A stretch of DNA of 52,020 nucleotides, taken from an uncultured Lachnospiraceae bacterium. Lineage in GTDB: Bacteria; Bacillota; Clostridia; Lachnospirales; Lachnospiraceae. Below, piece by piece: positions 44,038 to 49,319 of this stretch. How positions within the stretch are numbered: position 1 is the stretch's first letter; each line of letters starts with the position of its first letter. The notes under the pieces were generated by a model. It had not been told where the DNA came from and ran no database searches. It saw only the letters and a list, made by a program, of their open reading frames with translations. The position numbers and the translations under genes are program-made. Where the stretch lies: the NCBI GenBank assembly GCA_947600145.1, contig CANQGA010000003.1:1-52020 (forward strand). Reading direction: 5' to 3'.

Positions 44038-45426
44038 TCAGTTGCATTCCAGCGTGATCGCAGCCGCAAATCCCCCGTAACGGCTGCGGCCGACAACGGC
44101 GGTTCCGTGATGGGAATCCGCGATCTGCCTGACGATCAGAAGTCCCAGCCCGTGCCGCGGCTCTGCCGCGGTCTCATCGCAGGCCATAGAATGCGGCGCG
44201 CTGTTCAGCTTTGCGATCTGTTCATCCGACGCGCCGATCCCGTCGTCCTCTACGTGTATAACACAGCTCTCCCCATTCTTTTCTACAGATACATAGATCG
44301 TACAGCCGTCTTCGTTGTGGACCGCGCTGTTCTGGAGCAGGTTGGCAACCGCTCTCCTTAACAATTCCCCGTCGGCGTTTACCCGGCACACCAAAAGCTT
44401 TTCATCAGTCTCCCATCTGATCGGATATTTTCCGTCCGGATCGGCGTTGGCAAAGTCCGCCGCGGCCTGCCGGACGAGCGCCACCGCGTTCTCTTCCCGG
44501 AGCCTGACCGGCTGCATGTTGTATTCCAGTCTGGAAGCCAGGTTGAGATCGCTGACAAGCTTTCCGATTCGTTCGCTCTGTTTCAGGATAATTTCCGCCT
44601 TATGCCGCTCCTCCTCCGTAAGCCCCGGAGCGGCCTGCAGCTGGTCGGCGTAGCCCATGACCGTGGAGAGCGGCGTCCGGATATCGTGGGAAACCCCGGC
44701 GATCCAGCTGGCCCGGGCGGTCTCCCTCTTCTGCAGCTGCCGCTTCTGCGTCTGCAGGACTTCGGAAGTGGAATTGATATGGAACGCTATCTCGGATAAA
44801 AGCCCTGTCTCCCGGATATAAACCGGATCGCCGGACGGCAGGGCCCGGATCGCGTTGGCAATCGGTTTGACCGATCGGAGCAGCTTCGTACTCGCGGCCA
44901 TATAGATCAGAAGGATCACGGCCACATTCGCGATCACAACAACGAGAGCGATCTGCGGCGCATGGGCAATGAGCTGATAGTCCCAGCTCGGCCACATATG
45001 CTTCCAGAAGCTGGTCTTCGGAAATCCCAGCACCACAAGGCCGGACTCTGTACCGCTCGTGAAAGTCGGATATCCGTCGATATAGCCGCGGGTCAGGCCC
45101 GCAATGTCCGACAGGGTGTAACCTGCGGGTACAGATTTGGGAAGGTTATCGCTGTGCCACACGACCGCCTTTGTATCGTTGTCGATCAGGATCGCCCACG
45201 CGCCGGACAAACGCAGAGTTTCCGCGCCTTCATCGGACAGAAGGACGCCGTTTTCCGTTTCCGTTAAGGCCGCCGCAACCTCTTCCGCCGTTTTCCACGG
45301 CCGGGCGTTCGCCATCTGCCGGGAAACGATCACCGCGAAGATCAGGATATTGACGATGACCAGCAGGATGAAGCTCAGAAGCAATAACCCTACAAAACGC
45401 CGGATCAGCTTGGGTACGCTTTTCAT
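44038..45426 (-). CDS. sensor histidine kinase
   Basis: A 462-residue membrane kinase. TM1 is at about 11-33, an extracellular sensor region at about 34-145 and TM2 at about 155-178. The HisKA segment has GVSHDIRTPLSTVMGYADQL (phospho-His), followed by a HATPase with NLLQNSAVHNEDG, VEDDGIGAS and HGLGLLIV. The extracellular loop of over 100 residues separates it from the short-loop BceS type. It follows its response regulator, whose stop is 1 bp from this start (translational coupling), and is divergent from an ABC exporter operon it probably controls. The start at 45426 has GGAGG 9 bp upstream. Confidence 0.95.
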   Translation of the reverse strand: MKSVPKLIRRFVGLLLLSFILLVIVNILIFAVIVSRQMANARPWKTAEEVAAALTETENGVLLSDEGAETLRLSGAWAILIDNDTKAVVWHSDNLPKSVPAGYTLSDIAGLTRGYIDGYPTFTSGTESGLVVLGFPKTSFWKHMWPSWDYQLIAHAPQIALVVVIANVAVILLIYMAASTKLLRSVKPIANAIRALPSGDPVYIRETGLLSEIAFHINSTSEVLQTQKRQLQKRETARASWIAGVSHDIRTPLSTVMGYADQLQAAPGLTEEERHKAEIILKQSERIGKLVSDLNLASRLEYNMQPVRLREENAVALVRQAAADFANADPDGKYPIRWETDEKLLVCRVNADGELLRRAVANLLQNSAVHNEDGCTIYVSVEKNGESCVIHVEDDGIGASDEQIAKLNSAPHSMACDETAAEPRHGLGLLIVRQIADSHHGTAVVGRSRYGGFAAAITLECN

Positions 45427-45427
45427 C

Positions 45428-46132
45428 TCATTTGTCCTCCACAAGCAGTTTATAGCCGAGTCCCTTGACCGTGACAAGCGATACCGGGGACGAGGGATTC
45501 GCCTCGATCTTCTCGCGGATCCTGCAGATATGCGCCATCAGCGAGTTCTCGTATCCGAACGGATTGTCGCCCCACGCCGCCTCGCACAGCGCGTCGATCG
45601 TGACGATCCGGCCGGCGCCCCGCCAGAGCGCGGAGAGCAGGGCATGCTCCTTGGCCGTAAGCGGAATATGCTCCCCGTCTCGGATCACCTCCGCGCGGGA
45701 GAAATCGATGACGCTGTTTTTCAGCGGGACTACTGTTTTCTCCTCCCTGTAGGTCCTGCGCAGGATCGCGGCGACCCGGTACAAAAGCTCCCTGGGAAGG
45801 AACGGTTTGACCACATAATCGTCAGCGCCGAGGCCAAAGCCTCTGAACTTGTCTTCCTCCTCGCCGCGCGCGGTCAGAAAAAGAACCGGATAATCGCCGT
45901 CCTGCCTCAGCCGTTCCATCAGGCTGAAACCGTTTCCGTCCGGCAGCATGACGTCCAGGACCGCCAGCTCTGGCGAAAACTCCTTCGCCAGCCGGACCGC
46001 CTCGCCCACACTCTTCGCGGCCGCGATATTCTGATAACCGTCGTTTTGAAAAACGGATATAACCAGATCCAAAAGCGTCTGCTCATCGTCCACGATCAGG
46101 ATCCTCCTGTTCTTCAAACCGGACATCTCCAT
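45428..46132 (-). CDS. OmpR-family response regulator
   Basis: A 234-residue regulator. The receiver domain has VDDEQ, the phospho-Asp in LAVLDVMLPDGNG, the Thr in FLTARGEEED and the Lys in VVKPFLP. The C-terminal winged helix has IPLTAKEHALLSAL and ENSLMAHICRIREKIE with LVTVKGLGYKL. It probably activates the divergent ABC exporter operon in response to a membrane-active peptide, like CprR-type systems of Clostridia (inference). AAAGGAG precedes the ATG. Three GTAAGG repeats in the shared intergenic region are candidate binding sites. Confidence 0.95.
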   Translation of the reverse strand: MEMSGLKNRRILIVDDEQTLLDLVISVFQNDGYQNIAAAKSVGEAVRLAKEFSPELAVLDVMLPDGNGFSLMERLRQDGDYPVLFLTARGEEEDKFRGFGLGADDYVVKPFLPRELLYRVAAILRRTYREEKTVVPLKNSVIDFSRAEVIRDGEHIPLTAKEHALLSALWRGAGRIVTIDALCEAAWGDNPFGYENSLMAHICRIREKIEANPSSPVSLVTVKGLGYKLLVEDK

Positions 46133-46317: not shown

Positions 46318-47073
46318 ATGAACATCATTGAAACGCAGGGACTGACCAAATCCTACGGCGGCTTTACGGCTGTCTCCGGGATCGATCTTCATATCCCGCA
46401 GGGCTCGGTATACGGGTTTCTCGGTCCCAACGGCGCCGGCAAATCCACCACGATGAAAATGTTTCTCGGGCTTACAAAACCCACCGGCGGTTCCTTCGTC
46501 ATCGACGGAATGCGGTTTCCTGACAGCCGGGTCCAAATTCTGAAAGAGATCGGCTCATTGATCGAAGCCCCCGGCTTCTATGGCAATCTGACCGGCGAAG
46601 AGAATCTGGACATCATCCGCAGGATCCTGGGCCTTCCGCGGTCGTCCGTGTCAGAAGCCCTTGAGACCGTCGGTCTGACGCCGCACAGAAAGCAGCTGGC
46701 GAAAAAGTATTCTCTCGGCATGAAACAGCGGCTGGGGCTTGCGGGCGCGCTGATCGGCAGGCCGCCCATCCTGATCCTGGACGAGCCGACCAACGGCCTC
46801 GACCCCGTCGGCATTCATGAGATCCGAACGCTGATCCGCTCTTTGCCGCAGCGGTTCGCGTGTACGGTACTGGTATCCTCGCACCTGCTTTCCGAGATCG
46901 AACTGATGGCGGATCACATCGGCATTCTCAATCACGGGCGGCTGCTCTTTGAGGGTACGCCCGACGCTTTGAAGCGCGACGCCACATTTCAGGGATACCC
47001 GACCGACAATCTCGAGGACACCTTTCTCGCGCTGATCGACGCCGACAACCGGCAGAGAGGCGGCGCGCGATGA
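46318..47073 (+). CDS. ABC transporter ATP-binding protein (LanF/CprA-type)
   Basis: A 251-residue ATPase with Walker A GPNGAGKST, Q-loop region, signature YSLGMKQRLGLAGAL, Walker B PILILDEPTNGLDPVG and H-loop SSHLLSE. It closely follows the LanF/BcrA pattern of transporters that remove lantibiotics or cationic peptides from the membrane. It pairs with the two ABC-2 type permeases downstream and is divergent from the two-component genes. AAGGAGG precedes the ATG; the stop overlaps the first permease start by 4 bp. Confidence 0.95.
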   Translation: MNIIETQGLTKSYGGFTAVSGIDLHIPQGSVYGFLGPNGAGKSTTMKMFLGLTKPTGGSFVIDGMRFPDSRVQILKEIGSLIEAPGFYGNLTGEENLDIIRRILGLPRSSVSEALETVGLTPHRKQLAKKYSLGMKQRLGLAGALIGRPPILILDEPTNGLDPVGIHEIRTLIRSLPQRFACTVLVSSHLLSEIELMADHIGILNHGRLLFEGTPDALKRDATFQGYPTDNLEDTFLALIDADNRQRGGAR

Positions 47074-47804
47074 GCACGATGAACTTGATAAGACTGGAAC
47101 TTAAAAAAATCAAAAGGACCGGGTTCCTGCCCGCCTTTCTTGGCGGCGGCATCCTGGCCGCGGCGGTTCCCGCCGTGAACACGGCTTTCCGACCGGAACT
47201 GTTCGCCGGCTTAAGCGCCCCGCCGGTCAGCATTCTTCTCGGCGCCAACTGGCAGATGATGTCCATGCTGAATGTCCTGCTGACCGTCGCCGGGGCCTGC
47301 GTCCTGTATCACATCGAGTACGCAGATAACGCCATGAGGAAAATGAGTACGCTGCCGGTCCGGGAAAGCAGTCTGTTCTTCGGAAAGGCCGCCGTGCTGA
47401 TCCTGGCCGGCGGTCTTCTTCTGGCGATCGAGGCGGTCTCCGTTTTCGGCTGCTCCATTTACTGGTTCAGCCGGGCTGCGGCTCCGTCTGCGGAAATCCT
47501 CAAAAGCTTCGGGTTCTTTCTGCTGATGCTGATCCCGACCGCCCTGCTGTCTCTTGCGCTCGCGTCGGCGTGCAGGAATCTGTGGACCTCGCTGGGAATC
47601 GGCGTCGTGTGCGTGTTCGCGGCCACCATGATCCCGGCGCAGAGGTTTGCCCTGACGCTGTTCCCGTTTGCGATGCCATTCCAGATGCCGGGAAATCATG
47701 CGGCTGATGTGATACGAAATTATGCGATTGCCGCCGCGGCCGAAACAATCGTGATCGGCCTGTCAGAGGTTATAATCCTGAAAGTCAGGAGGATATTTGC
47801 ATGA
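47070..47804 (+). CDS. ABC-2 type permease (LanE/CprB-like)
   Basis: A 244-residue protein with six predicted membrane segments, starting LIRLELKKIKRTGFLPAFLGGG, a layout typical of the LanE/LanG-type permeases. With its neighbour it forms the membrane part of the peptide exporter. Translation is coupled to the ATPase by the ATGA overlap. Its last codons (VRRIFA) overlap one copy of a duplicated ribosome-site sequence. Confidence 0.92.
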   Translation: MSTMNLIRLELKKIKRTGFLPAFLGGGILAAAVPAVNTAFRPELFAGLSAPPVSILLGANWQMMSMLNVLLTVAGACVLYHIEYADNAMRKMSTLPVRESSLFFGKAAVLILAGGLLLAIEAVSVFGCSIYWFSRAAAPSAEILKSFGFFLLMLIPTALLSLALASACRNLWTSLGIGVVCVFAATMIPAQRFALTLFPFAMPFQMPGNHAADVIRNYAIAAAAETIVIGLSEVIILKVRRIFA

Positions 47805-47850
47805 GCTTTTATCATTTTCGTAAGTCAGGAGGTCATTTGCATGAGTTTTT
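47781..47850 (+). repeat. 40-bp-period tandem duplication of a ribosome-site/start region
   Basis: AAGTCAGGAGG(AT)ATTTGCATGAG at 47781-47810 and AAGTCAGGAGGTCATTTGCATGAG at 47821-47850 match at 26 of 30 positions. The first copy carries an ATG at 47801 that opens a short out-of-frame ORF (47801-47869, 22 residues) overlapping the true start at 47841. It looks like a duplication that left a decoy start. Confidence 0.85.
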
Positions 47851-48611
47851 TGTCTCTTGTAAGAGTTGAGCATCAGAAAGTGCGCCGCTCAAAAATTTTT
47901 CTGATCCTGATCCTGGCCGCAGTCATCCTCTGGATCCCTTCCGTTCTGAACGCGGATCTCAATTTCGGCATGCAGGCGGTGGGCATATCCCCGGAAAACA
48001 ACTTCTTTATCCAGGGATTTATGGCGATGGCGTGGTTTTTGTTTCCGGCCGCTATGGTCGTAATAACCGTTCTGCAGACACAGACCGAGAGAAACGATCA
48101 CGGCATTCTCAAAATGCTTTCCCTGCCTGTCGGCACCGCGAAGCTCTGCATGGCGAAATTCGCCGTGCTGGTATCCTTCTCGGCCGTCCAGATTCTGATG
48201 TCCGTCGGAATGTACTATATCAGCGCCGCGGCCGCGTCCCATACGCAGGGCTACGCCTTCTGCCTGCCTCCGCTCTTTGTCTTTAAAGAAGCCTGTATGA
48301 TGTGGGCGTCCGCCATCCCGATGCTGGCGTTTTTCTGGCTGCTGGCCGTCTGTATCCGGACGCCGGTCTTCTCCATCGGGATCGGTCTTGCCTCGATCGT
48401 GCCGTCCGTTCTGATGATAAACACAAAAGTATGGTTCGCCTATCCGATGGCCTATCCGTTCTTCGTGACAGCCTCGGAATACGGGAAACTGGCTGCCAAC
48501 CTGGAAACGGCGCCGGTCCGGCTGGTCCCGTGGCTCCCCGCCGCCGCGCTGATCACCGCCGTATGCCTGATCATTTCCTGCCTTTGTTTCGGGCAGGCTG
48601 AAAGGAGATAA
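47841..48611 (+). CDS. ABC-2 type permease (LanG/CprC-like)
   Basis: A 256-residue membrane protein with six predicted segments, beginning MSFLSLVRVEHQKVRRSKIFLILILAAVILWIP. It is the second permease of the exporter. QTQTERNDHGILKMLSLPV after the second segment is typical of the family. Its own GGAGG is the second copy of the duplicated start region. The stop codon lies inside the ribosome site of a 23-codon gene. Confidence 0.92.
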   Translation: MSFLSLVRVEHQKVRRSKIFLILILAAVILWIPSVLNADLNFGMQAVGISPENNFFIQGFMAMAWFLFPAAMVVITVLQTQTERNDHGILKMLSLPVGTAKLCMAKFAVLVSFSAVQILMSVGMYYISAAAASHTQGYAFCLPPLFVFKEACMMWASAIPMLAFFWLLAVCIRTPVFSIGIGLASIVPSVLMINTKVWFAYPMAYPFFVTASEYGKLAANLETAPVRLVPWLPAAALITAVCLIISCLCFGQAERR

Positions 48612-48614
48612 TTT

Positions 48615-48686
48615 ATGAAGAGCAAAATGGAAACCGCGATCAGCGCCGTAGTCATCGTACTGATGGTCGCGCAGAGATCTATTTAA
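48615..48686 (+). CDS. 23-residue hydrophobic peptide closing the exporter operon
   Basis: ATG at 48615 with AAGGAG 7 bp upstream, one of the best ribosome sites in the window, followed by 23 codons (MKSKMETAISAVVIVLMVAQ...). The middle is a single hydrophobic helix flanked by Lys and Arg, so it should insert in the membrane. It follows the second permease by 3 bp and precedes the terminator by 3 bp. It might be a small regulatory subunit of the exporter. It is too short for the ORF track and has no cysteine, so it is not a lantibiotic precursor. Confidence 0.6.
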   Translation: MKSKMETAISAVVIVLMVAQRSI

Positions 48687-48689
48687 CAG

Positions 48690-48734
48690 GATCCGGCCCT
48701 GCGAGACATTTTCTCTGTCCCGCAGGGCCGGATC
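48690..48734. terminator. strong bidirectional hairpin terminator between convergent operons
   Basis: GATCCGGCCCTGCG and CGCAGGGCCGGATC form a perfect 14-bp GC-rich stem with a 17-nt loop in which GACA and TGTC can extend the stem. It separates the exporter operon from the convergent flavin reductase-like gene. Confidence 0.85.
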
Positions 48735-48746
48735 TGCTTTCCCGCA

Positions 48747-49319
48747 CTATTTCTTCATCAGTCCCGCGCCGCTGTGCCATGCCTGGCCGATCTTCTCTCC
48801 CACGGCATAGTAGCCGTTCCGCATCTGGTCGAAAAGGAACGCGTTCAGTTTCCCGGCGTCGATCTTTCCTTTCTCATCAAGCACCTTCTCGTCCGCCAGG
48901 ACATTCTCGATCCGTCCCAGCACGCGCAGGCCGTAAGGCTCGTCTTCCATCTTCACGACGGTACACTCCAGCGTGACCGGATATTCCTCAATGACCGGCG
49001 CGTCCACCCGGCTGCTTTTAACCGCATGAAGACCGGTGCGCTCGAACTTATCGGCCATCTTATTCGCCGTGGCGATCCCGAAGAAATCCGACGCCTCCAG
49101 CGTATCCGTTCCCGGAATGGCCAGCGTGAACGCGCCCCTCGCCCGGATATTCGCGACCGTCTTATGGGCGGCCTCCAGGTTCAGCGCCACCATATCCTCG
49201 GCGCAGATACCGCCCCACGCCATCATCATCTCATCTACGGTGCCGTCCTCATTGTAGGTGCCGATCATGTACGTCGGCATCGGAAACAGATACGGCTGCA
49301 CTCCAAAATCTTTCTTCAT
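48747..49319 (-). CDS. flavin reductase-like domain protein
   Basis: A 190-residue FMN-binding split-barrel protein: PMPTYMIGTYNEDGTVDEMMMAWGGICAEDMVALNLE, HKTVANIRARGAFTLAIPG, DKFERTGLHAVKSSRVDAP. This matches flavoredoxin/flavin reductase-like proteins of anaerobes, which bind FMN and take part in electron transfer. I moved the start to 49319, where AAGGAG lies upstream; the ORF-track extension is promoter DNA. It is monocistronic with a good promoter. Confidence 0.92.
   Translation of the reverse strand: MKKDFGVQPYLFPMPTYMIGTYNEDGTVDEMMMAWGGICAEDMVALNLEAAHKTVANIRARGAFTLAIPGTDTLEASDFFGIATANKMADKFERTGLHAVKSSRVDAPVIEEYPVTLECTVVKMEDEPYGLRVLGRIENVLADEKVLDEKGKIDAGKLNAFLFDQMRNGYYAVGEKIGQAWHSGAGLMKK

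Follow-up and report, generated by a model that had tools for sequence, protein, structure and literature searches.

A 23-codon open reading frame behind a LanFEG/CprABC-like exporter operon of a Lachnospiraceae bacterium is very probably the in-frame deletion remnant of a conserved fourth gene

Directly behind the second permease gene of an exporter operon in an uncultured Lachnospiraceae bacterium lies an open reading frame (ORF) of only 23 codons, and the question raised by this locus is whether such a short frame is a gene in its own right. The stretch of DNA that we analysed, hereafter the window, spans 52,020 nucleotides of one contig. A preliminary description had taken the ORF for a genuine small gene encoding a membrane partner of the exporter, on the strength of its ribosome site, its place in the operon, a single hydrophobic helix and a terminator directly after it. 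Our analysis leads to a different reading, to which we give a probability of roughly 93%: the ORF is an in-frame deletion remnant of the fourth gene of the exporter operon, and the intact protein encoded by this gene is conserved and a companion of the exporter. The features of the locus are collected in Table 1.

Table 1. Features of the exporter locus and of the remnant behind it (window coordinates)
Feature	Position	Strand	Basis and remarks
Histidine kinase, divergent two-component system	44038..45435	-	Pfam HisKA and HATPase_c; homologue upstream on the opposite strand in 68/80 related loci
OmpR-type response regulator	45428..46132	-	Pfam Response_reg and Trans_reg_C; in 67/80 related loci
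Exporter ATPase (LanF/CprA-like)	46318..47073	+	NCBIfam TIGR03740 best, E 1.1e-73; in 76/80 related loci
Permease 1 (LanE/CprB-like)	47070..47804	+	Pfam ABC2_membrane_4; in 77/80 related loci
Permease 2 (LanG/CprC-like)	47841..48611	+	Pfam ABC2_membrane_4; TIGR03733 (MutG) E 2.4e-7
Ribosome-binding site of the fourth gene	48602..48607	+	AAGGAG, 7 nt ahead of the ATG and within the terminal codons of permease 2
23-codon ORF	48615..48686	+	Probable remnant of the fourth gene; three collinear blastn blocks against the G013 gene, and alignment
Deletion junction GCGCCGT	48643..48649	+	Two GCGCCG copies 210 bp (70 codons) apart in G013
Strong hairpin	48689..48735	.	Between the operon and a convergent flavin reductase gene; also conserved behind the gene in G013 and G021

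One ATPase and two ABC-2 permeases are encoded in one operon, which can be classed from its sequences as a peptide-resistance module of LanFEG/CprABC-like type, equipped with a two-component system of its own. The ATPase scores 247.6 bits against the curated cut-off of 309.75 of TIGR03740 (lantibiotic protection ABC ATPase), and permease 2 scores 30.4 bits against the cut-off of 117.2 of TIGR03733; by these scores the exporter genes appear as relatives, and not as members, of the two curated subfamilies. The start of permease 2 carries a peculiarity of its own. A tandem duplication of ~39-40 bp (47780-47869) covers its ribosome site and start, and has created a 22-codon ORF (47801-47869) ahead of the real permease 2 start. 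Two copies of the duplicated unit are present in the window and in the genome of a related species (G013), a further copy in G021, and one in G020 and G019.

The 23-codon ORF runs from an ATG at 48615 to a TAA at 48684-48686, and its product of 23 aa is MKSKMETAISAVVIVLMVAQRSI. As described, its position, length and AAGGAG motif and its immediate placement after permease 2 all match the sequence. The hydrophobic helix is a weaker case: the apolar run covers ~12 residues, with a best 19-residue Kyte-Doolittle mean of 1.55, compared with 1.9-2.4 for the three helices of one full-length relative. Downstream, the hairpin is real and strong (-38.6 kcal/mol, z -7.7); it lacks a T-run and is absent from the output of the terminator scan, so that a terminator role is only likely, and we consider it a probable bidirectional terminator without T-run. 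As a query against its own genome, the 23-aa peptide finds itself as the sole significant match.

The origin of the ORF was revealed by a blastn comparison of window positions 48560-48800 with the corresponding locus of G013 (L005). Three blocks were recovered: 48560-48628 matches L005 2220-2288 (95.7%, E 3e-28), 48627-48649 matches 2347-2369 (95.7%, E 5e-6) and 48640-48800 matches 2570-2729 (92.5%, E 3e-65). The blocks are collinear, and the window lacks 60 bp near codon 7 and 210 bp in the middle of the gene; the 113 codons of the G013 gene, less 20 and 70, leave the 23 codons of the window. The ORF is accordingly made up of the first four codons of the fourth gene, a two-codon repeat footprint (48627-48632), the residues TAISAV and the final 11 codons of the gene. 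Its start resembles that of the full-length gene (MKSK...TAISAV), and its end reads VIVLMVAQRSI, against VVVLMIAQRSI in G021. In G013 the two copies of GCGCCG lie at L005 2362 and 2572, the repeat extending to GCGCCGT if the 3′ copy is taken from G021. In this alignment the gene is seen to have lost 70 codons at a short direct repeat, which fused its 5′ and 3′ ends in frame.

The smaller of the two differences involves a repeat that is found throughout the genus. The fourth gene of G013 encodes 113 aa and carries near codon 7 an in-frame insert of 60 bp related to this hairpin repeat, and the ATGGAA at 48627-48632 of the window corresponds to the repeat-derived end of the insert. The window allele may thus once have carried an insertion like that of G013, of the 39-bp hairpin repeat type near codon 7, whose loss would have left ATGGAA as a footprint. 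The simplest history would place the insertion in the common ancestor, the window lineage then losing both the insert and the core of the gene. The repeat itself, ~39 bp long, consists of the core GCGTCACTGGCGC, an arm and then CATGGAAATAC, and occurs singly or in head-to-tail arrays with a period of 39, at L005 2290-2349 as well as in L016, L017, L018, L026 and other G000 loci. A count by search gave 39 occurrences of the exact core in G000, 96-102 in G010 and G016, and 0 in the reversed control. The arms vary between copies yet pair: across 24 copies, whose left arms come in 19 different versions, 165/192 positions are paired.

This origin alters the weight of the ribosome site, which the preliminary description had read as an argument for a real gene. 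The site overlaps the end of permease 2 (AERR-stop), and AGGAG is found upstream of 64/80 full-length copies of the fourth gene. Being inherited from the full-length gene and overlapping permease 2 codons, it is no independent evidence for the 23-aa ORF. The window does occupy the position typical of the fourth-gene family, with AAGGAG and a gap of 3 bp between the permease 2 stop codon (48609-48611) and the ATG. It has lost about residues 13-82, however, and with them the three transmembrane helices and the invariant residues P17, W18, R24, A30, A34, Y56 and Y76. Behind the homologous operons examined the 23-aa frame is conserved in none, and no relative examined has the 23-aa form, which does not support the ORF as an intact small gene. 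The inherited ribosome site may still direct translation of the remnant, giving a short apolar peptide that would not be a working subunit, and the remnant is probably without function.

The intact gene encodes a protein of ~93 aa, and the full-length proteins of the same genus (G020, G012, G019 and G017) share PW(T/S)ILP.R, WAL, CYA.FM, Y..G...N..MK.C.V.N..Y and similar motifs. A profile search of 397 genomes of the bacterial family gave a match in 24, and each of the 21 strong matches among them stands immediately 3′ of homologues of permease 1 and permease 2; conversely, of the 25 family genomes that have an orthologous permease (at least 46% identity), 21 carry the fourth gene. A scan of public genomes yielded 137 relatives, 80 of which were kept for neighbourhood counts. 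By an automatic test permease 2 is directly upstream in 77 of these 80 loci, most commonly with a gap of 5 bp. Most hosts belong to the Lachnospiraceae or other Clostridia; the gene is also present in Oceanobacillus and on plasmids of Lactococcus, whose copies are annotated as 'hypothetical protein'. The whole module, from kinase and regulator through ATPase and both permeases to the small gene, is present on the Lactococcus lactis plasmid NZ_CP065734.1 (L081, 68806-73571). This plasmid is mobilizable, IS6 elements flank the module on both sides, and genes for abortive infection and for a metal ATPase lie nearby.

No NCBIfam model fits the fourth-gene family. DUF308 (PF03729) is matched weakly by 34 of 44 members (best E 1.2e-5); in the member shown, the match covers the last two helices, about half the protein, and scores 22.3 bits, below the Pfam cut-off of 25. 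Modelled by AlphaFold (mean pLDDT 90, pTM 0.77), the full-length protein has helices of membrane length at residues 2-23 (with a break at the PW motif), 32-58 and 65-89, and a structure search with this model against the PDB found no fold match (best E 2.3). Sequence and model together describe the intact protein as a conserved, predicted three-helix membrane protein that is widespread, unnamed and in no curated family.

A fourth membrane protein has in fact been described for exporters of this type, contrary to the preliminary description, to which no small subunit was known: LanFEG systems with such a protein include NukFEGH, EpiFEG(H) and As-48EFG(H) (PMC4239024). NukH is a non-lipoprotein membrane protein of 92 aa that is found beside a LanFEG exporter and is proposed to bind the lantibiotic (PMC4239024), and on the Staphylococcus epidermidis plasmid pNuk650 its gene follows that of NukG by 6 bp (PMC8765612, table 3). 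The nukacin immunity protein of Staphylococcus warneri and of pNuk650 resembles the fourth protein in place, size (92 vs ~93 aa) and topology; a membrane protein of ~92 aa immediately following the LanG gene is a feature of the full-length relatives, and not of the window remnant. Using the NukH sequence of NZ_OK031035.1 (the stretch of pPI-1, NC_005207.3, that was examined has no annotated nukFEGH), hhalign gave the parent family of the window a probability of 1.4% against NukH, and of 12.6% against NukH combined with a set of small proteins termed here the A3 group. We therefore dropped the assignment of the parent family to NukH, since a profile match of 1.4% is no convincing sequence homology. 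The genetic settings differ as well: nukFEGH sits in a lantibiotic producer cluster, whereas the window-type module carries its own two-component system. With CprABCK-R of Clostridioides difficile and relatives it shares the ATPase, the two permeases and the kinase/regulator pair (PMC5786555). Some CprABC-type operons have an extra lipoprotein or protease, but no three-helix fourth gene is named (PMC5786555).

The A3 group (L011, L012, L013, L077, L078 and L080) comprises small proteins of ~98 aa rich in hydrophobic segments. They come from the same bacterial family and share place, similar size and hydrophobic pattern with the fourth protein, behind more distant permeases (30% identity). The group matches NukH by profile (89.8%), whereas the parent family of the window convincingly matches neither; compared with plasmids, the A3 small protein gave no match. 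It is fair to suppose, by analogy, that the intact gene would work like NukH. Position, topology and this analogy make an accessory peptide-immunity subunit the most likely role of the intact protein, which would lie in the membrane next to the permease pair and assist immunity. It could bind the incoming peptide and hand it to the exporter, as proposed for NukH and NukFEG, or alternatively tune the exporter. The idea of a small membrane partner thus holds for the intact ~93-aa gene at this position and fails for the 23-aa form.

The relatives of the window suggest that this gene is being lost repeatedly. A permease 2 homologue is present in 13 of 26 genomes of the same genus, and G020, G012, G019 and G017 have a full-length gene of 92-94 codons directly 3′ of it, the frame in G012 having an additional in-frame start further upstream. 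In G021, the closest relative (permease 2 98% identical), the gene has lost its start and first half, the leftover frame being TTG-started, and keeps a part of what is lost in the window; neither of these two alleles can be derived from the other. No fourth gene was found in G015 (permease 2 81%), nor behind the permease in the family genomes G308 and G320. In G212, from another genus (permease 70%), there is no more than an ORF of 25 codons, which begins with residues similar to the N-terminus, MVKNKIPAAVHTIMM; this short remnant behind permease 2 of the same exporter (L056) reads MVKNKIPAAVHTIMMIEQTEGFSNL. On this comparison the fourth gene is decaying in the clade of the window through independent lesions. 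It appears dispensable, because it has been lost repeatedly while the exporter genes stay open, and since the other operon genes stay open after the loss, the exporter probably works without the fourth protein.

All the lesions keep the frame (the 60-bp insert, the 210-bp deletion and the TTG frame of G021), which is slightly unexpected for a decaying gene. As evidence of selection we rejected this observation: three such events would occur by chance about once in 27, and the argument is post hoc and too weak. The intact ribosome site, and a frame that none of the clade's indels has disrupted, are nevertheless what one would expect if the deletion had produced a miniature functional single-helix peptide, with the start and end of its parent, still acting on the exporter. 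We think this improbable, as the apolar run of ~12 residues would make a short membrane span, and G021 lost the N-terminus instead and G015 the gene. Compared with G021, moreover, 2 of the 12 C-terminal codons carry non-synonymous changes, while permease 2 has 4 such codons in 256 (p 0.025); the signal is weak, and C-termini vary in the family in any case. An error of assembly hiding a full-length gene is less probable still: this is a draft genome of 325 contigs, but the repeats at the junction are only ~7 bp long, too short to mislead an assembler, and the copy of the nearest relative is also broken, at other breakpoints. ORFs of 20-30 codons are common in the window, and the frame might have arisen by chance or as a new small gene that has nothing to do with the operon ahead of it; this explanation has next to nothing left in its favour, being refuted by the collinear DNA alignment with G013, in which both ends align to the gene in order and in frame with significant E-values.

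A separate alternative concerns the intact parent, which might be the partner of the histidine kinase, in signalling, rather than of the exporter. The kinase and regulator genes do adjoin the module in 67-68 of the 80 loci. Against this, the fourth gene directly follows permease 2 in 77/80 loci, and 11-12 loci have no kinase or regulator match in the DNA examined, some of them cut by contig ends. We regard a kinase partner as unlikely, though to be taken more seriously than any of the alternatives for the ORF itself.

Reading the 23-codon ORF as a deletion remnant removes a false small gene, and illustrates how a gene can be lost while its strong ribosome site persists. Were the miniature peptide real after all, it would represent a natural miniaturisation of a transporter subunit via deletion at short repeats. 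What is new is the parent family, in which a LanFEG-type module is joined by a NukH-like fourth protein that has no name; the 23-aa ORF is unsupported as a gene. The finding draws attention to a small membrane protein that is widespread and uncurated and that goes together with exporters of peptide antibiotics in gut Clostridia, and its carriage on Lactococcus plasmids makes the part that this protein may play in resistance directly testable.
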